Position numbers and translations under genes: made by a program
Assembly: GCF_003614435.1 (NCBI RefSeq)
Contig: NZ_CP025546.1
Coordinates: 186,001 to 250,000 of the forward strand
From: Mycobacterium paragordonae
GTDB lineage: Bacteria > Actinomycetota > Actinomycetes > Mycobacteriales > Mycobacteriaceae
DNA length: 64,000 nucleotides
Direction: 5' to 3'
The notes under the pieces: generated by a model
Databases searched by the model: none
Told to the model about the DNA's origin: nothing
What the model saw: the letters and a program-made list of their open reading frames with translations, nothing else
In this document: piece after piece, positions 38,035-49,045 of the stretch
How positions within the stretch are numbered: position 1 is the first letter of the stretch
Layout of the letters: each line of letters starts with the position of its first letter

Positions 38035-38110
38035 CTCCGCCCAGGAGCCGATATGCGCACACTTGCGCTGAGCCGCGCCCGAGTGTCGCGTCCGCACTAG
38101 TGTTGTGGTC

Positions 38111-41100
38111 ATGGGACTCACCCGACTCTTCCTGGAATGGCCCGTCGTCCGGCAGTTGCGGTCCGGGGACGGGCTCGGCCGCGGTCCGGCGGTCACCTCC
38201 CAGCACACCCGCGCCATCACCCCGCGCACCACCACCGCCGACCGGGTGGTGCAGAGCATCTGCCCGTACTGCGCGGTCGGTTGCGGGCAGAAGGTCTACG
38301 TCAAGGACGAGAAGGTCGTGCAGATCGAGGGTGACCCCGATTCGCCGATCTCCCGCGGACGGTTGTGCCCCAAGGGGTCGGCCAGCGAGCAACTCGTCAA
38401 CAACCCGGGCCGGCAGATGAAGGTGCTCTACCGCGCGCCCGGCGCCACCGAATGGGAACCGCTGGAGCTCGATCGAGCCATCGACATGGTCGCCGACCGG
38501 TTCGTCGAAGCCCGCCGGCACGCCTGGCAGGACATCGACAAGCACGGTCATCCACTGCGGCGCACCATGAAGATCGCTGCACTCGGTGGCGCCACGCTGG
38601 ACAACGAAGAGAACTACATCATCAAGAAGCTCTTCACCGCCGCGGGCGCCATCCAGATCGAGAACCAAGCCCGTATTTGACACTCCGCCACGGTTCCCGG
38701 TCTGGGAACCTCCTTCGGGCGCGGCGGCGCCACCCAATCACTGCAAGACATGGCCAATGCGGACTGCATCGTCATCCAGGGTTCGAACATGGCCGAGTGC
38801 CACCCCGTCGGATTCCAATGGGTGGAAGAGGCTAAAGCGCGGGGCGCCAAGCTTATTCACGTCGATCCGCGCTTCACCCGTACCTCGGCCGTGTCCAACA
38901 AACACATCCCGATCCGGGCCGGCTCCGACGTGGTGCTGCTCGGCGCACTGATCAATTACGTCATCGCCCAGGATCTCTGGTTCAGGGAGTACGTGCTGGC
39001 CTACACCAACGCGGCCACCCTGATCAACGAGAATTACCGGGACAGCGAGGATTTGGGCGGTTTGTTCTCCGGCTTCGACCCGGAAACCGGACAGTACGAC
39101 GTCACCACCTGGGCGTACGCGGGCCAGGAGGACGCGCCGGACCCCGAACACGGGGCCAGCGCCTCGGCCCGCGCCGCCGGCGACGTGCACGGCAGTGGCG
39201 GCCCGCCGTTGCCGCATGCCCGTGTCCAGCGTGACGAGACCCTGCAGCACCCTCGCTCGGTGTTTCAGATCGTCAAGCGGCACTACGCCCGCTACACCCC
39301 GGAGATGGTGCGCGACGTCTGCGGTATCAGCATCGAGGACTTCGACTACCTGGCCCGTGCCGTGACCGAGAACTCCGGTCGCGAGCGCACCACCTGCTTC
39401 GCCTACGCCGTGGGCTGGACCCAGCACACGCTCGGAGCCCAATTCATCCGCACCGCAACGATTCTGCAGCTGCTGCTGGGCAACGTGGGACGTCCCGGCG
39501 GCGGGATCATGGCGCTGCGGGGGCACGCCACCATCCAGGGTTCCACCGACATCCCGACGCTGTTCAACCTGCTGCCCGGCTACCTGTCGATGCCCAAGGC
39601 CGGCGTACACGACACGTACCAGGAGTACATCAAAGCGGTCGGCCCGAAGAATCAGAAAGGGTTCTGGGCGGACGCCGACGCCTACCTGATCAGCCTGCTC
39701 AAGGCCTGGTGGGGCGACGCCGCCCGGGAGGACAACGACTGGGCCTTCGACTACCTGCCGCGACTGTCCGGCCCACACGGCACCTACCAGACGGTGATGT
39801 CGATGCTCGAAGACGAAGTCGACGGCTACTTCCTGCTCGGCCAGAACCCGGCCGTCGGCTCGGCGCACGGCCGGATGCAGCGAATGGGCATGTCACACCT
39901 GAAGTGGCTGGTCGTGCGTGACCTCAACATGATCGAGTCGGCCACCTTCTGGAAGGACGGGCCCGAGATCGCCTCCGGCGAACTCAAAACCGAAGAGATC
40001 GACACCGAGGTGTTCTTCTTCCCCGCCGCCACACACGTCGAGAAGGCCGGCTCGTTCACCCAGACCCAACGCCTCGTGCAGTGGCGGCATCAAGCCGTCC
40101 AACCGCCCGGAGACTGCCAGAGCGAACTGCAGTTCTTCATCGAACTGGGCAAGCGCATCCGGCAGCGCCTGGCCGGGTCGACCGACGAGCGCGACCGCCC
40201 GCTGCTGGATCTGACCTGGGACTACCCCACCGACGAACATGGCGAACCGGACGCCACCGCGGTACTGGCCGAGATCAGCGGGCGGTACCTCACCGGGCCG
40301 AAGGCAGGTCAGTTGGTGCCGGGTTACACCGAACTCGGTGCCGACGGATCGACATCCTGCGGCTGCTGGATCTACTCGGGCGTCTACGCCGAGGGCGTCA
40401 ACCAGGCCGCTCGCCGGGCACCGCTCGGCGGCCCGAGCCCGAGCCAGTCGGAATGGGGCTGGGCCTGGCCCGCCGACCGCCGCATCCTGTACAACCGCGC
40501 CTCGGCCGACCCGGACGGCAAACCGTGGAGCGAGCGCAAGCGCTACATCTGGTGGGACCCCCAGCAGCAACGCTGGGTCGGGGATGACGTGCCCGACTTC
40601 CCCGTCGACCGCGCACCTGACACCCGGCCGGATCCCGACGTGGGCGGACCGGACGGGCTCGCGGGCGACGACCCGTTCATCATGCAGGCCGACGGGAAGG
40701 CCTGGCTGTTCGCGCCCAAGGGCCTTGTCGACGGCCCGCTGCCCACCCACTACGAGCCGCAGGAATCGCCGGTGGCCAACGCGCTGTACCCGCAGCAGCA
40801 GAACCCGTCGCGAATCATGTTCCCGCGCAAGGACAATCTGTGGGCACCGAGTGCGGGTGAGCCCGGCGGTGACGTCTACCCCTACGTGTTCACCACCTAT
40901 CGGCTCACCGAACACCACACCGCGGGCGGGATGAGCCGCTGGCTGCCATACCTGGCCGAGCTGCAACCGGAGATGTTCTGCGAGGTCTCACCGGAGCTGG
41001 CCGCCGAACGTGGCCTGGAGCCCTACGGCTGGGCGACGATCGTCTCCCCGCGGGCGGCGATCGAGGCCAAGGTGCTCGTCACCGAGCGGATGCGGCCGCT

Positions 41101-41398
41101 GGTGATCGGGGGGCACACCATCCACCAGATCGGGCTGCCGTATCACTGGGGCGTGGGCTCTGACGCTGTGGTCAGTGGCGACGCGGCCAACGACCTGCTG
41201 GGGGTAGCTTTGGACCCGAACGTGCAGATCCAGGAGTCCAAGGCCGGCTCGTGCGACATCCGTCCGGGCCGGCGGCCGCAGGGTGAGGCGCTGCTGCGGC
41301 TCATCGAGGAATATCAGTCGCGTGCGGGGGTAACCGTCGAGACGGACAATATCCGGGTGACGACATCCGAACCACCAAACCCGCGACGGGAGGGCTGA
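38111..41398 (+). CDS. fdhA: Selenocysteine formate dehydrogenase, catalytic alpha subunit
   Basis: Read through the in-frame TGA at 38678-38680 as selenocysteine, the gene encodes 1,095 residues with Sec190. It has an N-terminal [4Fe-4S] site (C51, C54, C58, C86), the Mo/W-bis-MGD domains, IENQARI-Sec-HSATVPGLGTSFGRGGATQSL, and the C-terminal dinucleotide-binding domain. This matches the FdnG-type alpha subunit, where Sec ligates the metal and formate is oxidised to CO2. A SECIS hairpin follows the TGA. No twin-arginine signal is present (MGLTRLFLEWPVVRQL). ATG 38111 is chosen by homology; a GTG at 38105 is possible. It overlaps the beta-subunit start by one base. Without recoding, two apparent genes would be annotated. 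Confidence 0.93.
38678..38710 (+). promoter_or_regulatory. Selenocysteine UGA codon with bacterial SECIS element
   Basis: TGA at 38678-38680, then 11 bases, then a perfect seven-pair stem GGTTCCC (38692-38698), loop GGTCT (38699-38703), GGGAACC (38704-38710). Loop sequence and the 11-base distance equal those of the E. coli fdhF SECIS as I recall it. The loop GU bases are those contacted by SelB. The element is also coding (SATVPGLGT). Confidence 0.9.
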
Positions 41399-42369
41399 TG
41401 GCGCAGCTGGTCGAATCGACCGGTCCGGCCGAGGACGCGGGGTGGCCGGATTCCAAGCCGCGCAAAGGATTCTTCACCGACACCTCGATCTGCATCGGTT
41501 GTAAGGCCTGCGAGGTGGCCTGCAAGGAGTGGAACCGCAATCCGCGCGACGGTGACCTGGAAATTCTCGGGTCGTCCTACGACAACACCGGGCAGCTGGG
41601 AGCCAGCACCTGGCGGCACGTGGCGTTCATCGAGCAGGACCGCGACCGCATCGAGGAAGCCCGCGAATCCGGCCGCGCGCTGGTGAGTCTGGGCATGCCG
41701 TCCGTGGGCGGTGCCCCCGACTCCGTGGACATCACGCCGCCGGACACCCCGGAGTTCCGCTGGCTGATGGCCTCGGATGTCTGCAAGCACTGCACCCATG
41801 CCGGTTGCCTCGACGTCTGCCCGACGGGCGCGTTGTTCCGCACCGAGTTCGGCACCGTCGTGGTGCAGGACGACGTCTGCAACGGCTGTGGCACCTGCGT
41901 GGCCGGGTGCCCGTTCGGCGTCGTCGAACGGCGCAGCGACGGAACCTACGCCACTCCGGCCAAACGGTCCGAGCGCCCGGAACACGAGTTCGTCACCGGG
42001 GTGGCCCAGAAGTGCACGCTCTGCTACGACCGGCTGCTCGAGGACCAGACTCCGGCCTGCGCACAGACCTGCCCGACGACGTCGATCAAGTTCGGCGACC
42101 ACGACGACCTCGTCGCCCAGGCCCGCGCCCGGGTCGCGCAACTGCACGCCACGGGACTCACCGAGGCCCGCCTGTACGGGGTCAACGAGCATGACGGCGT
42201 CGGCGGCACCGGATCGGTCTTCCTGCTCCTCGACGAGCCCGAGGTGTACGGGCTGCCCCCTGACCCGAGGGTGCCGACCGCGGACCTGATGCAGATGTTC
42301 AAGCGGGCCGGGGTGGCCGCCGCGGGAATGTTCGCCGCTGGGGCACTGGCTTTTTGGCGGTCCCGATGA
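41398..42369 (+). CDS. fdhB: Formate dehydrogenase iron-sulfur beta subunit
   Basis: A 323-residue ferredoxin-type electron-transfer subunit with four cysteine groups for [4Fe-4S] clusters: CIGCKACEVACKEW, CKHCTHAGCLDVCP, CNGCGTCVAGCPFG, and CTLCYDR with CAQTCP. A hydrophobic segment near the C-terminus (GVAAAGMFAAGALAFW) probably anchors it in the membrane, as in FdnH. It passes electrons from the catalytic subunit to the membrane subunit. The start overlaps the alpha-subunit stop (TGATG) and the stop overlaps the next start (ATGA). Confidence 0.92.
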   Translation: MAQLVESTGPAEDAGWPDSKPRKGFFTDTSICIGCKACEVACKEWNRNPRDGDLEILGSSYDNTGQLGASTWRHVAFIEQDRDRIEEARESGRALVSLGMPSVGGAPDSVDITPPDTPEFRWLMASDVCKHCTHAGCLDVCPTGALFRTEFGTVVVQDDVCNGCGTCVAGCPFGVVERRSDGTYATPAKRSERPEHEFVTGVAQKCTLCYDRLLEDQTPACAQTCPTTSIKFGDHDDLVAQARARVAQLHATGLTEARLYGVNEHDGVGGTGSVFLLLDEPEVYGLPPDPRVPTADLMQMFKRAGVAAAGMFAAGALAFWRSR

Positions 42370-43436
42370 GCACCTCGGAGTACGACAGCCTGCGCCCACC
42401 CGCTGGCTCGGGTGGCAAGCGTCGGCGGGGGGACGGCAAGCGGCGCCGGCGCGACGAGTCGTTGATGGTGCCGGACGCGGAATTCTCCTCGTATTACGGA
42501 CGTCCGGTGGTCAAGCCGGCACCGTGGGGTCACGAGGTCGGCGCGTATCTGTTTCTCGGTGGGGTGGCCGGCGGGTCCGGTCTGCTGGCCGCCGGCGCTC
42601 AGCTCACCGGGCGAAAGGTGTTGCGCCGCAACACCCGGCTCGCCGCTTTGGGGGCGGTCATGCTGGGCGCGGTCGCACTGGTCAAGGATCTGGGCCGGCC
42701 CGAGCGCTTCGTCAACATGCTGCGCACCTTCAAGCTGACGTCGCCGATGAGCGTGGGCTCGTGGATACTCAGCTTCTTCAGCGCGGGTATCGGCGTCGCC
42801 GCGGCGGCCGAGGTCGACCGGATGACGGGTGAGCGGTTGCCGCTCGGCCCGCTGCGCCCGGTGCTGCGCGCCGTCGAGGGACCGGCCGGTCTGGAGGCCG
42901 CGCTCTTCGCGCCGCCGCTGGCGGTCTACACCGCGGTGTTGTTGTGCGACACGGCAACCCCGACGTGGAACGCCGCCTATAAGGACCTGCCATTTGTCTT
43001 CGTCAGCTCGGCGAGCCTGGCCGCGTCAGGGCTGGCGATGATCACCACACCGGTCGCCGAAGCCGGTCCTGCCCGCAAGCTGGCAGTCATGGGCGCGGTC
43101 AGTGATCTGATCTCCGCCAGGGTCACCGAATACCGGATGGACCCGGTGACCCGAGAACCGTTACACCACGGGACCCCCGGCAAGTTGCTGCAGTGGAGCG
43201 AAATTCTTGCTGCCGCGGGAGGTTTGGGCGCACTGCTGGGCGGGGGTCGCCGCGACGTCGCGGCCCTGTCGGGCGCGGCCCTGTTGATGGCGTCGGCGAT
43301 GCTGCGGTTCGGCTTCTTCGAAGCGGGCAAGGAATCGGCGCGCGATCCCCGCTACACGATCGAGCCACAGCGACGCAGGCTGGCCGCGCGCCGGGCGGCC
43401 GGGATCACCGACGACTCGATCACCACTGCTGGTTAA
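42366..43436 (+). CDS. NrfD/PsrC-type membrane subunit of formate dehydrogenase
   Basis: A 356-residue polytopic protein. It has a basic N-terminal stretch (GKRRRGDGKRRRRDE) and then about eight helices with the NrfD pattern (GAYLFLGGVAGGSGLLAAGAQL, VKDLGRPERFVNMLRTFKLTSPMSVGSW). NrfD proteins bind quinone without heme, so electrons from formate probably enter the menaquinone pool here. E. coli FDH-N instead has a cytochrome b gamma subunit. Coupled to the beta-subunit gene by ATGA. The gene ends in a dyad shared with the converging selD stop. Confidence 0.87.
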   Translation: MSTSEYDSLRPPAGSGGKRRRGDGKRRRRDESLMVPDAEFSSYYGRPVVKPAPWGHEVGAYLFLGGVAGGSGLLAAGAQLTGRKVLRRNTRLAALGAVMLGAVALVKDLGRPERFVNMLRTFKLTSPMSVGSWILSFFSAGIGVAAAAEVDRMTGERLPLGPLRPVLRAVEGPAGLEAALFAPPLAVYTAVLLCDTATPTWNAAYKDLPFVFVSSASLAASGLAMITTPVAEAGPARKLAVMGAVSDLISARVTEYRMDPVTREPLHHGTPGKLLQWSEILAAAGGLGALLGGGRRDVAALSGAALLMASAMLRFGFFEAGKESARDPRYTIEPQRRRLAARRAAGITDDSITTAG

Positions 43437-43446
43437 GCGGCTTAAC
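43432..43446. terminator. Small dyad containing both convergent stop codons
   Basis: GTTAAGC-G-GCTTAAC, exact seven-base arms. The TAA stops of the membrane subunit gene and of selD lie in its two arms. It may act as a weak bidirectional terminator; it has no U-run. Confidence 0.3.
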
Positions 43447-44413
43447 GAATTTCAATGCCGCTGCCCGCCGCAGTGTGCCCGATGACCGGGTAGCCGGGTA
43501 GCTCGCCGACCACCAGCAGCCCGCCGGAGGTCTGCGCGTCGGCCAGCAACAAAAGGTCGTCTTCGGTTACCCCGCTTGCGAATTCGAGGTGGGGTCGCAC
43601 CCAGTCCAGATTGCGGTGGGTGCCGCCGGAGACGAACCCATCGTTCAGGGCCGCGCGGGCTGCCTCGATCACCGGTACCGCGGCGCGGTGGATGACCGCG
43701 CGGACGCCGGAAGCGCGGCACATCTTGTGCAGATGTCCCAGCAGGCCGAAACCGGTGACGTCGGTGGCCGCTTCGGCGCCGGCCCGCAGTGCCGCCTCCG
43801 ATGCGTCGCGGTTGAGCCGGGTCATGATGTCGACGGCTTCCTGGTAGACCTCACCGGTCTGCTTGTGCCGGTTGTTGAGCAGGCCCACGCCCAGCGGTTT
43901 GGTGAGGGTGAGCGGCAGCCCCGGCTTGGCGGCGTCATTGCGGAGCAACCGCGCGGGGTCGGCCACGCCGGTGACCGCCATCCCGTATTTCGGTTCCGGA
44001 TCGTCGATGGAGTGGCCGCCGATCACCGGGCACTCGGCCTGCGCCGCTACCGCCAGCCCGCCCCGCAACACTTCGGTCATCAGCTCCAGCGGCAACACGT
44101 CGCGCGGCCAGCCGACGAGATTGATGGCGACCACCGGGCGCCCGCCCATCGCGTAGATGTCCGACAGTGCGTTGGCGGCGGCGATGCGTCCCCAGTCGTA
44201 GGCGTCGTCGACGACCGGGGTGAAGAAGTCCGCGGTGGACAGCACCGCCAGATCGCCGACCCGGACAGCGGCGGCGTCATCGCCGTCATCGAGGCCCACC
44301 AGGACGTCGGGGCCCGTTTGGCCGGTGAGCCCGCGTACCGCCTCTTCCAGCTCGCCAGGTGGGATCTTGCAGGCACAGCCGCCGCCATGCGCGTAGCCGG
44401 TCAGCCGCGTCAT
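43442..44413 (-). CDS. selD: Selenide, water dikinase (selenophosphate synthase)
   Basis: A 323-residue enzyme making selenophosphate from selenide and ATP, the selenium donor for SelA. The catalytic start reads YAHGGGCACKIP (C13, C15, K16). The ATP/Mg loop is GLDDGDDAAAVR, followed by LSTADFFTPVVDDAYDWGRIAAANALSDIYAMGG, GGHSIDDPEPKYG and DVTGFGLLGHL. The active-site residue is cysteine, not Sec. It converges on the formate dehydrogenase operon and is divergent from tRNA-Sec/selA/selB. Confidence 0.95.
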   Translation of the reverse strand: MTRLTGYAHGGGCACKIPPGELEEAVRGLTGQTGPDVLVGLDDGDDAAAVRVGDLAVLSTADFFTPVVDDAYDWGRIAAANALSDIYAMGGRPVVAINLVGWPRDVLPLELMTEVLRGGLAVAAQAECPVIGGHSIDDPEPKYGMAVTGVADPARLLRNDAAKPGLPLTLTKPLGVGLLNNRHKQTGEVYQEAVDIMTRLNRDASEAALRAGAEAATDVTGFGLLGHLHKMCRASGVRAVIHRAAVPVIEAARAALNDGFVSGGTHRNLDWVRPHLEFASGVTEDDLLLLADAQTSGGLLVVGELPGYPVIGHTAAGSGIEIR

Positions 44414-44433: not shown

Positions 44434-44459
44434 GCCGAGTGTGCGGCCAGCCGCACGCT
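44434..44459. repeat. Palindromic repeat unit, copy 1
   Basis: A 26-base unit GCCGAGTGTGCGGCC...GCCGCACGCT containing a GTGCGGC/GCCGCAC hairpin. It differs at one base from the copy at 44464-44489 and lies between selD and tRNA-Sec. Similar GTGTGCGGC palindromes recur between genes in mycobacteria, as I remember. Confidence 0.75.
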
Positions 44460-44463
44460 GGTA

Positions 44464-44489
44464 GCCGAGTGTGCGGCCTGCCGCACGCT
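44464..44489. repeat. Palindromic repeat unit, copy 2
   Basis: Same unit, 30 bases after the first, with T in place of A in the loop. As a pair they could form hairpins on either strand and end selD-antisense or upstream transcripts before the tRNA. Confidence 0.75.
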
Positions 44490-44530: not shown

Positions 44531-44623
44531 GGAGGCGTTTGGGTTCCTGGTGGTCCCCCCGGTCTTCAAAACCGGTGAGATCGAGCATCTCGGTCTGGCG
44601 GGTTCGATTCCCGTCCGCCTCCG
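44531..44623 (+). tRNA. selC: tRNA-Sec (anticodon UCA)
   Basis: A 93-base tRNA. The acceptor GGAGGCG(T) pairs with (C)CGCCTCC, with the eighth pair mismatched T/C. The anticodon stem is CCGGT/ACCGG and the loop CTTCAAA, with TCA at 44566-44568 reading UGA. The long variable arm has a GAGAT/ATCTC stem, and the T arm is GCGGG-TTCGATT-CCCGT. The discriminator is G and CCA is not encoded. Long variable arm plus UCA identifies tRNA-Sec rather than a suppressor. It lies 39 bases upstream of selA. Confidence 0.95.
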
Positions 44624-44662: not shown

Positions 44663-45970
44663 GTGACGCAGGTCGACCCGCGACGGCTGATTCCCCGCAC
44701 GGATCAGTTGCTGGCCCGCCCGGCTGTGCTGCTCCAGCGAAAAAGGCTGGGCGACAAGGCTGTTCGCGCAACGATTCGTGAGACCCAGCAACGGGCCCGG
44801 CACGGTGACCTGGCGCCGGACCGGGTGCCGGAAGCGCTCGAGACGGCCTTGGCCGCCCAGGCCGCCACCTCGTTGCACCCGGTGCTGAACGCCACCGGCG
44901 TCGTCGTGCACACCAATCTCGGCCGCGCTCCGCTGGCCGCGGCCGCGGTCGAAGCGCTGATCGCGGCCAGCGGCTACGTCGACGTCGAACTCGACCTCAC
45001 CACCGGCACCCGCTCCAAGCGCGGCGTCGCGGTCCGGCAAGCGCTGCTCGACGCGTGCCCGGCGGCCGGGGACGCCCTCGTCGTCAACAACGGCGCCGCC
45101 GCGCTGGTACTGGCGACCACCGCCCTGGCGGCCGGCAGCGAAGTCATCATCAGCCGCGGCGAGCTGATCGAGATCGGCGCCGGTTTTCGGCTGCCCGACC
45201 TGATCGCGTCGACGGGCGCTCGACTGCGCGAAGTCGGCACCACGAACCGCACCCATCTGAAGGACTACGAGGCGGCGCTCGGCCCGGATACCGGCTGCGT
45301 GCTCAAGGTGCACCAGAGCAACTTCCGGGTGGAAGGCTTCACCGCAGCCGCAACCCTCACTGAACTCGCGCCCCTGACCACGGGCAGCAACATCCCGCTG
45401 ATCGCCGACCTGGGCAGTGGCCTGCTCCAGCCGGACCCGGCGCTGCCCGACGAACCCGGCGCCGCCACCGCGCTGGGCGAGGGCGCCGACCTCGTCATCG
45501 CGAGTGGCGACAAACTGCTCGGGGGACCGCAGGCCGGCATCATCCTGGGCCGCGCCGAACTGATCACCACACTGGCGCGGCATCCACTGGCCCGGGCGGT
45601 CCGTGCCGACAAGCTGACCCTGGCCGCGCTCGAGGCGACGGTCTGCTCGGGCAGCTCACCGGTGACCGTGGCGCTGCATGCAGACCGCGACCGGTTGCGT
45701 ATCCGGGCAGAACGCCTGGCCGAGTCGGTCGGCGCTACGGTCGTCGCCCACGACGGCCGCGTCGGCGGCGGAGGTGCGCCCGGCGTGCCGCTCCCCGGGT
45801 GGGCGGTCCGCCTGCCGGAGTCGGTGGCCGCCACGCTGCGGGCCGGCCGGCCCGCGGTGCTGCCCCGCGTGCACGACGGCGCCTGCCTGCTGGATCTGCG
45901 CTGCATTCCCGAGGACGACGACGACCGCCTGCTGGACGCGGTGCGCGCGGCCCTGGATGGACAGTCCTGA
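44663..45970 (+). CDS. selA: L-seryl-tRNA(Sec) selenium transferase
   Basis: A 435-residue PLP enzyme converting seryl-tRNA-Sec to selenocysteinyl-tRNA-Sec with selenophosphate. Motifs: HPVLNATGVVVHTNLGRAPL, VVNNGAAALVLATTALAAG, SRGELIEIGAGFRLPDLI, EVGTTNRTHLKDYEAAL, and the PLP lysine in SGDKLLGGPQAG. The length is slightly below E. coli SelA (463). GTG 44663 follows AGAGAGG. It overlaps or abuts selB, so the two are co-translated. Confidence 0.95.
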   Translation: MTQVDPRRLIPRTDQLLARPAVLLQRKRLGDKAVRATIRETQQRARHGDLAPDRVPEALETALAAQAATSLHPVLNATGVVVHTNLGRAPLAAAAVEALIAASGYVDVELDLTTGTRSKRGVAVRQALLDACPAAGDALVVNNGAAALVLATTALAAGSEVIISRGELIEIGAGFRLPDLIASTGARLREVGTTNRTHLKDYEAALGPDTGCVLKVHQSNFRVEGFTAAATLTELAPLTTGSNIPLIADLGSGLLQPDPALPDEPGAATALGEGADLVIASGDKLLGGPQAGIILGRAELITTLARHPLARAVRADKLTLAALEATVCSGSSPVTVALHADRDRLRIRAERLAESVGATVVAHDGRVGGGGAPGVPLPGWAVRLPESVAATLRAGRPAVLPRVHDGACLLDLRCIPEDDDDRLLDAVRAALDGQS

Positions 45971-47757
45971 GCACTCATGTCGTGGCCACCGCAGGCCACG
46001 TCGACCACGGCAAGAGCACGCTCATCCACGCGCTCACCGGCATGGAGCCCGACCGCTGGGAGGAGGAGCGGCGTCGCGGTCTGACCATCGACCTCGGCTT
46101 CGCCTGGACCACCCTGACGTCCGGCCGCAAGGTCGCCTTCGTCGATGTGCCGGGCCACCAACGCTTTCTGGGCAACACGCTGGCCGGCCTCGGGCCCGCA
46201 CCGGTGGTGTGCTTCGTGGTGGCCGCCGACGAGGGCTGGCAGGCACAGTCCGACGACCATCGCGACGCCGTTGCGGCACTGGGCATTCAACACGGCCTCA
46301 TCGTGATCACCCGCGCCGACCGGGCCCCGGAGCGCGGCGCCGAGGTGCTCACCCAGGCCCGCGCCGAGTTGGCCGCAACCGGCCTGCGCGGCGCACCGGG
46401 CGTCATCGTGTCGGCCGTCGAGGGCAGCGGGCTCGCTGAATTCCGGGCTGCCCTGGACCGCGTGCTGGCGCAGGTGCCGGCGCCCGAAGCGGATGCCCGG
46501 GTGCGGCTGTGGGTCGACCGTTCCTTCACCATCACCGGCGCCGGCACGGTGGTGACCGGCACGTTGCCCGCCGGGACGCTGGCCGTCGGCGATCGGCTGG
46601 AGCTGCTCGGTGCGTCGCGCACCCGGCCGGCGACCGTTCGCGGACTGCAGAGCTGCGGTCAGCCGTACCCCTCGCTCGGACCGGTCTCGCGGGTGGCGCT
46701 GAACCTGCGCGGCGTCCCACGCGAAGACATAAGACGCGGCGACGCCCTGCTCACCCCGGACGCGTGGCCGGACACCCGGCTCCTGGACGTGCGTCGCACC
46801 TCCGGTGACCCGTGGAGTGCAGCCCCGACGCATCTCGTCGCTCATGTCGGCACGGCGGCCGTGCCGGTGCGGTTGCGACCCTTCGATGACGACCACGGCC
46901 GGCTCACTCTCGACCGGAGGCTGCCGTTGGTGTTCGGCGACCGGCTGGTGCTGCGCGACCCGGGAAGCGTGCGGATCCTCGGCGGCGCCGAGGTGCTCGA
47001 TGCCGAACCTCCCGCGCTGCGCCGGCGCGGCGACAGCGGCCGCCGCGCAGCGGTATTGGCGCTGTCGGAGCCCGGCGGTGACGTCGAGGCCGAGGTCGCG
47101 CGCCGGGGAGCTGTGCGGGAAACTCACCTGCGCCGGCTCGGGTTGCTGCCGCACACCGTGCCCGCACAGGTCCTCGTCGTCGACGGCTGGTGGGTGCACG
47201 GCCCGACGCACGAGACCTGGCAGCGGCGGCTGCGGGCCGCGGTCGACGACTTGGCCGCACGAGATCCATTGGCTGACGGTCTGTCTCGGGGTGCGGCCCG
47301 CGATCTGCTGGCGCTGCCCGACGAAGCGCTGCTCGACGACGTCGCTCGTGCAGCCGGGCTCGAGCAGCAGGGCGGCGTGATCCGGCTACCTGGTGCGCGG
47401 CACCGGCTCGGCCCGGCCGAAGCGGCGATACGCGAGTTGGAGACCAAGTTGGGGGCGGAGCCGTTCGGAGCGCCGGAAGCCTACGAACTGCAGGCGCTGA
47501 AACTGGGCACCCGCGAACTGGCCGCCGCCGAGCGCGCCGGGCGGGTGTTGCGGTTGCGCGACGGCGTGGTGTTGTTGCCGAACGCGCCCGCGCTGGCCAT
47601 GCGCACCCTGGCCACGCTTGAGCAGCCCTTCACCACAAGCCAAGCGCGCCAAGCGCTTAACACCACGCGGCGGGTTGCAATTCCACTACTCGAATACCTC
47701 GATACCCGCGGCTGGACCCGTCGACTCGATGCGGGTCACCGCGAAGTCGCGCGCTGA
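45967..47757 (+). CDS. selB: Selenocysteine-specific elongation factor
   Basis: About 596 residues. N-terminal GTPase: ATAGHVDHGKST (G1), LTIDLGF (G2), DVPGH (G3) and TRAD (G4), then EF-Tu-like domains and four winged helices that bind the SECIS (C-terminal FTTSQARQALNTTRRVAIPLLEYLD). It delivers Sec-tRNA to UGA codons marked by SECIS. The start is unclear: CTG 45967 overlaps the selA stop (CTGA) and gives STHVVATAGHVDH, whereas GTG 45982 would trim the first strand. No ATG fits. Confidence 0.93.
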   Translation: MSTHVVATAGHVDHGKSTLIHALTGMEPDRWEEERRRGLTIDLGFAWTTLTSGRKVAFVDVPGHQRFLGNTLAGLGPAPVVCFVVAADEGWQAQSDDHRDAVAALGIQHGLIVITRADRAPERGAEVLTQARAELAATGLRGAPGVIVSAVEGSGLAEFRAALDRVLAQVPAPEADARVRLWVDRSFTITGAGTVVTGTLPAGTLAVGDRLELLGASRTRPATVRGLQSCGQPYPSLGPVSRVALNLRGVPREDIRRGDALLTPDAWPDTRLLDVRRTSGDPWSAAPTHLVAHVGTAAVPVRLRPFDDDHGRLTLDRRLPLVFGDRLVLRDPGSVRILGGAEVLDAEPPALRRRGDSGRRAAVLALSEPGGDVEAEVARRGAVRETHLRRLGLLPHTVPAQVLVVDGWWVHGPTHETWQRRLRAAVDDLAARDPLADGLSRGAARDLLALPDEALLDDVARAAGLEQQGGVIRLPGARHRLGPAEAAIRELETKLGAEPFGAPEAYELQALKLGTRELAAAERAGRVLRLRDGVVLLPNAPALAMRTLATLEQPFTTSQARQALNTTRRVAIPLLEYLDTRGWTRRLDAGHREVAR

Positions 47758-47785
47758 TCCGCCTGCCCCGGGCTATTCTGCACGC

Positions 47786-49045
47786 ATGGCGCTCGAAGCG
47801 CAGTCAGCGGCGGCGGTGCCGGTCACGAGTCGACGCCGCCGCCTCCCACCACGCAATGTGACGTATCCCAAAAGCGTTACCCGCCAAAAGCGGGTGCTGG
47901 TCAGGTCCACCCGGATCGGCGCCGTCGTCAGCGCCTTCTACACCTTGCTCGCCCTCTTCGTCGGGCATGACGGCATGCCCATCGTCGTGCTCAGCGCCGT
48001 CAGCACCGTCGTCTACTTGGCGATCCCGTTGCTGTACCGCTACGGGGTTCTGCTCGCCCCAATGGTTTTCATCGTCGCGGCGTACGTGTTGATCACCGTC
48101 CTGTGTCTGCGCATCGGTACCGGAACCGGGATCCAGTTCTATTACCTGGTGGGTGCAACGATCGCCCTGCTGGTCCTCGGCATCGACCACATCGTGCTGG
48201 CGTCGTTGATGGCCGGGGTGGGTGCGGTTCTGACGGTGGTGCTGCAGCTGACGGTGCCCGAAAAGACGGGCGTGCAACCAGATTGGGCCTACACCTTCGG
48301 CTACGTCGTCTCGGTGGCCACCTCCTGGATCATGGTGATGGCGATCGTATGGTCGGCGCTGCGCGAAATCACCCGCGCCGAGCGGGTGATCGAAGCCGAA
48401 TACCACCGGTCCGAGTCATTGCTCGCCAACATACTTCCCACGAAAATCGCTGAGCGGTTGAAGGATCCGTCCCGGCCCGTCATCGCCGACAAGTACGAAG
48501 ACGCCTCCGTGCTGTTCGCCGACATCGCGGGTTTCACGAGTCGGGCGAGCGACACCGCACCCACCGACCTGGTCCGGTTCCTTGATCAGCTCTACACCCA
48601 ACTGGATGCCCTGGTCGACCGCCACGGCTTGGAGAAGATCAAGACCAGTGGTGATTCGTACATGGTCGTCAGCGGGGTGCCGGATCCGCGTCCGGACCAC
48701 CTGGAGGCGCTGGCTCAGCTCGCGTTGGACATGGCACAGGCGGTCGCCGGTCTGAAAGATCCACGGGGCCGGGCGGTTCCGCTGCGGATCGGTGTGGCAG
48801 TCGGTCCCGTGGTCGCCGGAGTCGTCGGTGCGCGCAAATTCTTCTACGACGTGTGGGGCGATGCCGTCAATGTCGCGGCGCGGATGGAGACCACCGACGT
48901 CGAGGGCCGTATTCAGGTGCCCCAGGACGTGTACGACCGGCTCAAGGACCGATTCGTGTTCGAGGAGCGCGGTGACATCGACGTCAAAGGCAAGGGCGTG
49001 ATGCACACCTGGTATCTCGTCGGCCGAGCTCCGCGGCGGGGTTAA
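47786..49045 (+). CDS. Membrane-anchored class III adenylate cyclase
   Basis: A 419-residue protein like M. tuberculosis Rv1625c: an N-terminal six-helix membrane domain (about residues 45-200), a HAMP-like linker helix (RAERVIEAEYHRSESLLANILP) and one cyclase domain. The catalytic set is complete: metal Asp in VLFADIAGFTS, substrate Lys in EKIKTSGDSYMVV with the second metal Asp, and D/N/R in WGDAVNVAARMET. A homodimer would make cAMP from ATP on the cytoplasmic side. A plausible -10 (TATTCT) lies just before the ATG. Distinct from the soluble cyclase/LuxR type elsewhere in the window. Confidence 0.9.
   Translation: MALEAQSAAAVPVTSRRRRLPPRNVTYPKSVTRQKRVLVRSTRIGAVVSAFYTLLALFVGHDGMPIVVLSAVSTVVYLAIPLLYRYGVLLAPMVFIVAAYVLITVLCLRIGTGTGIQFYYLVGATIALLVLGIDHIVLASLMAGVGAVLTVVLQLTVPEKTGVQPDWAYTFGYVVSVATSWIMVMAIVWSALREITRAERVIEAEYHRSESLLANILPTKIAERLKDPSRPVIADKYEDASVLFADIAGFTSRASDTAPTDLVRFLDQLYTQLDALVDRHGLEKIKTSGDSYMVVSGVPDPRPDHLEALAQLALDMAQAVAGLKDPRGRAVPLRIGVAVGPVVAGVVGARKFFYDVWGDAVNVAARMETTDVEGRIQVPQDVYDRLKDRFVFEERGDIDVKGKGVMHTWYLVGRAPRRG

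Follow-up and report, generated by a model that had tools for sequence, protein, structure and literature searches.

The locus examined here raises the question whether a TGA triplet inside a gene of Mycobacterium paragordonae ends translation or is read as selenocysteine (Sec). A first-pass annotation of the window, i.e., the whole stretch of 64,000 nucleotides that was analyzed, had proposed that this triplet belongs to a Sec formate dehydrogenase gene equipped with a bacterial SECIS element. The present analysis supports this proposal, with qualifications concerning the pairing of the corresponding Escherichia coli element and the prior description of such an enzyme in M. marinum.

Continuity of fdhA across the in-frame TGA

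The gene, here called fdhA for the putative alpha subunit of a Sec formate dehydrogenase, occupies positions 38111..41398 of the forward strand, with the ATG assumed to be the start (a GTG lies at 38105). Its frame contains no stop codons other than the TGA at 38678..38680, which is codon 190, and the terminal TGA; it stays open for 905 codons 3′ of the former, and with Sec at TGA 190 the product comprises 1095 residues. The frame had been described as FdhA-like on both sides of the TGA, which agrees with the domain searches: the 189 residues 5′ of it match Molybdop_Fe4S4 (PF04879, 74.4 bits) and the 905 residues 3′ of it match Molybdopterin (PF00384, 73 bits) and Molydop_binding (PF01568, 48.1 bits), all above cut-off. 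The read-through protein matches NF041513 (formate_DH_Act) with 1931.2 bits (cut-off 1400) over model positions 3-1067 of 1067, as well as TIGR01553 (FDH-N alpha) with 931.5 bits (cut-off 814.2), and it contains the motif CPYCAVGC at residue 51 and a Cys within RLCPKG. Translated with U at position 190, it aligns without a break to a solved formate dehydrogenase (PDB 1h0h_A, 699.9 bits), and codon 190, in the context QARI-U-HSATVPGLGTSFGRGG, falls on residue X of ARI-X-HSATV. This residue is presumably Sec and a ligand of the metal, and the placement of the TGA at the catalytic position (ARI-Sec-HSATV) holds. Further PDB matches include entries named by their depositors as selenocysteine-containing formate dehydrogenase. 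Since no RR-x-[FGAVML] motif was found within the first 60 residues, our guess would be that the active site is cytoplasmic.

In mechanical ORF listings the gene falls apart, with one ORF ending at 38680 and the next resuming at ATG 38750; the resulting gap of 69 bases corresponds to the false gap of about 70 bases that standard annotation had been expected to produce. Read literally, this split would describe two separate genes, one for an N-terminal Fe-S protein and one for a formate dehydrogenase fragment starting at ATG 38750, and the 120 relatives listed out of 7995 database matches are indeed of second-half length (856-918 aa, 76-82% query coverage), with no PF04879 (Fe4S4) domain precomputed for them. 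However, codons 191-213 are conserved as protein within the unbroken alignment to the solved enzyme, and NF041513 alone spans both halves; we therefore attach next to no probability to two separate genes. With fdhA taken as one gene, the 120 relatives, out of the 7995 matches, look truncated, as if cut off at the TGA. Their length matches the segment 3′ of the TGA and no Fe4S4 domain is precomputed for them, so that their annotation would conceal the Sec residue together with a part of the enzyme. A passage in one report states that selenoprotein genes are often mis-annotated as truncated (PMC13188914), and fdhA would be a clean example of a selenoprotein gene split in this way.

Genes downstream of fdhA

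The genes that follow fdhA can be read directly in their order. A putative iron-sulfur beta subunit is encoded by fdhB (41398..42369, forward strand; Fer4_11, 71.2 bits), whose product scores 158.4 bits against TIGR01582, below the cut-off of 334.7. It is followed by fdhC (42366..43436, forward strand) for a putative NrfD-type membrane subunit (PF03916, 61.6 bits), for which a crude scan shows four hydrophobic stretches; its start was placed at ATG 42366, the ORF being listed from TTG 42354. The selenophosphate synthetase gene selD (43442..44413, reverse strand; TIGR00476, 386 bits, cut-off 125) is free of in-frame stops and has Cys in its GGGCACK motif. Next come selC for a tRNA-Sec with anticodon TCA (44531..44622, forward strand; to 44624 according to ARAGORN; RF01852, 74.8 bits, cut-off 47), selA for selenocysteine synthase (44663..45970, forward strand; TIGR00474, 424 bits, cut-off 267.9) and selB for the Sec-specific elongation factor (45982..47757, forward strand; TIGR00475, 268.8 bits, cut-off 242.25; SelB-wing_3, 56.3 bits), with the start of selB placed according to its conserved N-terminus (ORF listed from 45799). 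All members of the Sec-decoding set, SelA, SelB, SelD, and tRNA-Sec, are therefore above cut-off and located at most 7 kb downstream of fdhA. A gene for FdhD lies elsewhere in the genome (G000:C1:2276621; 174.2 bits, cut-off 140.9).

Two further observations concern the same region. Between selD and selC, two near-identical 23-nt palindromes are present at 44437-44489 (GAGTGTGCGGC-NN-GCCGCACGCT); they were rejected as a sel-specific site, as copies with 1-2 mismatches are dispersed across the genome. The gene directly 3′ of selB, at 47618-49045, encodes a cyclase of the adenylate or guanylate type that carries a MASE7 domain (193.6 and 206.1 bits).

From what is known of these protein families we infer how Sec would be inserted, which part the metal would play, the direction of the reaction and the path of the electrons. 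SelD would make selenophosphate, SelA would turn Ser-tRNA-Sec into Sec-tRNA-Sec, and SelB would bind both Sec-tRNA-Sec and the mRNA hairpin just past the UGA, so that Sec is delivered at the ribosome. Sec 190 is expected to be the metal ligand of FdhA, which would oxidize formate to CO2 as respiratory electron donor; FdhB would pass the electrons via its Fe-S clusters to the NrfD-type FdhC, from where they would enter the quinone pool.

The predicted SECIS hairpin

Eleven nucleotides after the TGA, the forward strand contains a predicted bacterial SECIS hairpin (38692..38710) with the stem GGTTCCC/GGGAACC and the 5-nt loop GGTCT (38699-38703). The perfect 7-bp stem, the loop and the distance are exactly as the first-pass annotation had given them. 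The legend of Fig. 2 in PMC13188914 lists as constraints on bacterial SECIS elements a loop of 3-9 nt with G at positions 1-2, an upper stem of 4-16 bp, 16-37 nt from the UGA to the loop and a minimum free energy (MFE) of at most -7.5 kcal/mol. The hairpin lies within all of these limits, having a 5-nt loop that starts with GG (GGUCU), a 7-bp stem, 18 nt between UGA and loop and a predicted MFE of -15.6 kcal/mol in both 46-nt and 40-nt folds.

Folding of the single sequence was dropped as proof of a SECIS element, with z-scores of -1.07 and -1.33 lying below significance, and comparison across genomes was therefore used. Chance expectations were obtained from base shuffles of both strands of the window. 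The exact geometry (Watson-Crick 7-bp stem, 11 nt after a TGA, 5-nt loop beginning with GG) occurs once in the window at 0.2 expected, and with G-U pairs allowed there are 2 occurrences at 1.25 expected. When the spacing may range from 9 to 30 nt with Watson-Crick pairs only, 8 are found at 1.8 expected, so that such hairpins are commoner in the window than the shuffles suggest. Taken alone, the hairpin is thus weak to modest evidence for Sec, and the comparison across genomes is decisive.

A likeness to the element of E. coli fdhF had also been claimed. In NC_000913.3, the TGA is followed by 11 nt, GGTTGCA, GGTCT, and GCACC, hence the spacing and the loop letters GGTCT are the same as in M. 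paragordonae and this part of the claim stands. The predicted pairing differs, since the E. coli sequence folds into 3 bp, an unpaired U, 3 bp and a 4-nt loop, in contrast to the unbroken 7 bp and 5-nt loop predicted here. The E. coli FdhF chain itself is shorter, with 715 residues in 1aa6_A.

SECIS elements of the E. coli type require a bulged U. The predicted stem in M. paragordonae has no such bulge, and in all 135 TGA copies of the genus described below the U at this place pairs with A or G. A literature search for the bulged U in SECIS elements turned up no account.

Conservation of the TGA and its hairpin

For the comparison within the genus, 297 genomes drawn from a larger group were used, with scores taken for the two best candidates in each. 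Of these genomes, 140 contain a relative at 1e-100 or better, and codon 190 was read in 142 copies from these 140 genomes: 135 genomes have a TGA copy, seven have a Cys copy (5 TGC, 2 TGT) and two of these (G138, G197) have both. As an outcome that would speak against its proposal, the first-pass annotation had named homologs with a different residue and no continuity across the TGA; what was found is TGA in 135 of the 142 copies and an alignment that runs unbroken across codon 190. Every one of the 135 TGA copies has the loop GGTCT, the 11-nt spacing and standard pairs at 7 of 7 positions. Among the best 80 of at least 592 relatives on named genome contigs, a set that probably overlaps with the genus genomes, TGA is present in 80/80, the loop is GGTCT in 53, AGTTT in 18, and AGTCT in 9, and 7 pairs are formed in 79 and 6 pairs in one.

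Selection on the hairpin was assessed by summing the synonymous entropy of codons 195-199 and setting the sum against that of randomly drawn codons which encode the same residues elsewhere in the same genes, relatedness being unmodelled. An entropy as low was reached in 0 of 200,000 draws for lineage A (76 copies), for lineage B (59 copies; both lineages are introduced below) and for all 135 copies together. All 135 copies share identical codons at 195-198, and codon 199 is GGA or GGG, each of which allows pairing. The seven Cys copies do not show this constraint, since 137,066 of 200,000 draws gave an entropy as low as theirs. The functional constraint that had been suspected from the likeness to E. 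coli is thereby corroborated.

Covariation was examined in a set of 69 distinct hairpins, which come from this genus as well as from other actinobacteria and include six from TAG genes. Paired cells make up 96.9%, and 25 cells are changed on both sides compared to a shuffled mean of 7.6 (0/500 shuffles as high); neither the covariation score nor the degree of pairing was matched in any of 500 shuffles. Sliding the helix by 1-3 columns lowers the pairing to 27-71%. The number of pairs with change on both sides, two, does not stand out, since 279 of 500 shuffles also reach it. No variation at all is seen in three pairs, the outermost pair is broken in 12/69 rows and the third pair in 3/69, and the signal comes mostly from column 15 × 27 (UA 36, CG 16, UG 13, GC 3, GU 1).

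These data bear on the view that the TGA stems from faulty sequencing or marks a pseudogene in decay. As a rule, a stop within a conserved enzyme gene does indicate decay, and one genus copy (L148 in G253) carries an additional in-frame TAG at query position 974; with hairpin and tRNA-Sec still there, it is perhaps itself a decaying copy. Yet the TGA is kept at the same codon in 135 of 142 genus copies, the other seven having Cys, and at all 80 named loci, the hairpin is under selection and the frame remains open beyond the TGA, which makes an error or a pseudogene extremely improbable in our estimation.

Distribution of tRNA-Sec

A tRNA-Sec above the Rfam cut-off is present in 133 of the 297 genus genomes, and all 133 are among the 135 with a TGA-containing fdhA; none of the five genomes with a Cys copy only has one over the cut-off. 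This count is limited to over-cut-off matches, as any match at 0.001 is obtained in 278 genomes; in a search of 14 control genomes, 13 matched and 5 were above the cut-off. The two of the 135 genomes that have no tRNA-Sec over the cut-off, G086 (300 contigs, 99% complete) and G293 (630 contigs, 74% complete), are put down to assembly gaps. SelB was discarded as a co-occurrence test: its count does not discriminate, as TIGR00475 is matched at 1e-40 in 281 of 297 genomes but above the cut-off in only 61. Many of the 1e-40 matches (frames of ~400-430 aa) are taken for EF-Tu.

In 128 of the 133 genomes, fdhA and tRNA-Sec are located on one contig, and in 124 within 20 kb; in the other five they are on different contigs. 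In contig coordinates, the four remaining distances amount to roughly 21 kb, 24 kb, 636 kb (G073), and 4.6 Mb (G275), the last two being unlike most genomes of the genus.

It could be argued that the UGA is instead read at a low level by a near-cognate tRNA (Trp or Cys), giving an enzyme without selenium, and the natural Cys copies in 7 of 297 genomes lend this idea some substance. Such readthrough needs neither a hairpin nor a tRNA-Sec, so that the synonymous constraint, which is absent from the Cys copies, and the confinement of over-cut-off tRNA-Sec to genomes with the TGA gene count against it; we judge it to be very improbable. Because continuity across the TGA, its catalytic position, the conserved and covarying hairpin and the complete adjacent set of Sec genes all agree, we are nearly certain from the sequence comparisons that fdhA encodes the catalytic subunit of a molybdopterin formate dehydrogenase and that TGA 190 would be decoded as Sec by the adjoining machinery. 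Formate is accordingly a predicted selenium-dependent electron source in 135 of the 297 genus genomes, and the conserved bulge-less hairpin represents a defined test case for RNA recognition by actinobacterial SelB.

Lineages in the genus and extent of selenocysteine use

A tree of 79 FdhA proteins (13 of the 76 lineage A copies, 12 of the 59 of lineage B, all seven Cys copies and 47 from elsewhere) was computed by a quick method under LG+G4, with codons 187-202 omitted and the root not inferred. The genus copies occupy three separate places, each being one side of a branch relative to the other two with a support of 100; judged by this tree, the genus holds two lineages of predicted Sec formate dehydrogenases and one Cys lineage. 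The M. paragordonae copy belongs to lineage A, to which lineage B is ~64% identical. Neighbors of lineage A are records named Pseudarthrobacter, Arthrobacter, Sinomonas, Kocuria, Nakamurella, and others, and a copy named Skermania nests inside it. TAG copies are found at two places in the tree. The Cys copies group with two from other genera that likewise have Cys, and TGA and TAG copies surround them in the tree; hence a change from Sec to Cys is likely in this lineage. It consists of L037-L043 (in G004, G093, G197, G053, G152, G138, and G145), with G197 and G138 retaining the Sec enzyme as well.

Lineages A and B were not found together in any of the 297 genomes, with two best candidates scored for each. 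The arrangement of tRNA-Sec separates them cleanly in the 124 genomes where it lies within 20 kb: for lineage B it is upstream on the same strand in 54/54, as in L053 of G207 with tRNA-Sec and selB 5′ of fdhA, and for lineage A (70 genomes) it is either downstream on the same strand, as in the window (38), or upstream on the opposite strand (32). Both lineages share the same bulge-less SECIS core. Since A and B were not found together, tRNA-Sec over the cut-off is found only with either of them and their arrangements are distinct, Mycobacterium might keep Sec for a single protein, encoded on one of two separate cassettes, a tentative reading that we consider somewhat less probable than its opposite. 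If true, each genome would acquire, retain or lose its entire code expansion along with a single cassette, and actinobacterial SelB would recognize an RNA that has no bulged U of the E. coli kind.

Further candidates for Sec were checked and rejected. At least nine order-level copies contain 2 or 3 TGA; seven of these were read and none supports a second Sec in the enzyme (G427 and contig C32 of G419 hold the copies outside these seven). In five of the seven (L077, L252, L253, L254, and L255) the extra TGA is located at the gene end (query 1075-1089), and in L076 and L251 there is none before the alignments end at 1085 and 1077. A protein of the UGSC family (L282, G000:C1:295152-295586), encoded ~68 kb from fdhA, is the Cys form (TGC GGC TCC TGC) and not a second selenoprotein. 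The next match of a SECIS model in the genome (24.5 bits, E 0.008) has no TGA 11 nt 5′ of the stem; as this model was built from formate dehydrogenase alone, with most lower matches outside inspection, the search is a weak one.

Comparison with known systems

With a whole-length match to NF041513, the family of actinobacterial formate dehydrogenase alpha subunits, and no difference in the one family score compared, fdhA is, as far as its sequence tells, an ordinary and well-supported member of this family. The closest described counterpart is found in the same genus: a passage in PMC3434033 mentions a Sec formate dehydrogenase of M. marinum (MMAR_5194/MMAR_5195) together with selA (MMAR_5190) and lists enzyme and selA as lost in the ancestor of M. 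ulcerans. Genus, enzyme and linked sel gene are the same as here, as judged from this published description. Other reports, in the parts consulted, list M. avium paratuberculosis with a candidate for the alpha subunit in a survey table from 2005 (PMC1242214), place SelB in M. avium and, at that time, not in other mycobacteria (PMC1780047), and note UGA as Sec codon in four mycobacterial strains (PMC4524478). For bacteria in general, FdhA is given for 67 of 75 Sec-using species in an excerpt of PMC1794560, often in the same operon as Sec-trait genes and with changes from Sec to Cys.

In Actinomycetospora chiangmaiensis DSM 45062, the FDH1 system comprises Sec FdhA, FdhB, FdhC, SelA, and SelB in one cluster, and formic acid accumulates without selenite but hardly with it, according to the sections of PMC7176365 that describe this strain. 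As given there, a permease lies inside the cluster and SelD outside of it, whereas selD is located between fdhC and selC in M. paragordonae; the same sections describe three Sec formate dehydrogenase systems for A. chiangmaiensis, in contrast to the one found in M. paragordonae. A UAG-encoded Sec formate dehydrogenase has been described for Geodermatophilaceae in a portion of PMC5330540. It represents the same FdhA family and codon position, the Sec codon being TAG there and TGA here. In line with this, all eight TAG copies that were read in the order-level family f16, from seven genomes (L256, L258, L259, L260, L261, L262, L263, and L270), carry TAG as their Sec codon and retain the hairpin; we infer that f16 corresponds to Geodermatophilaceae.

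The enzyme type is thus already known from mycobacteria and other actinobacteria, and the feature is unsurprising in this genus. New with respect to these systems are details, namely the predicted hairpin without a bulge, the two Sec lineages next to one Cys lineage, and the 120 listed relatives that look truncated.
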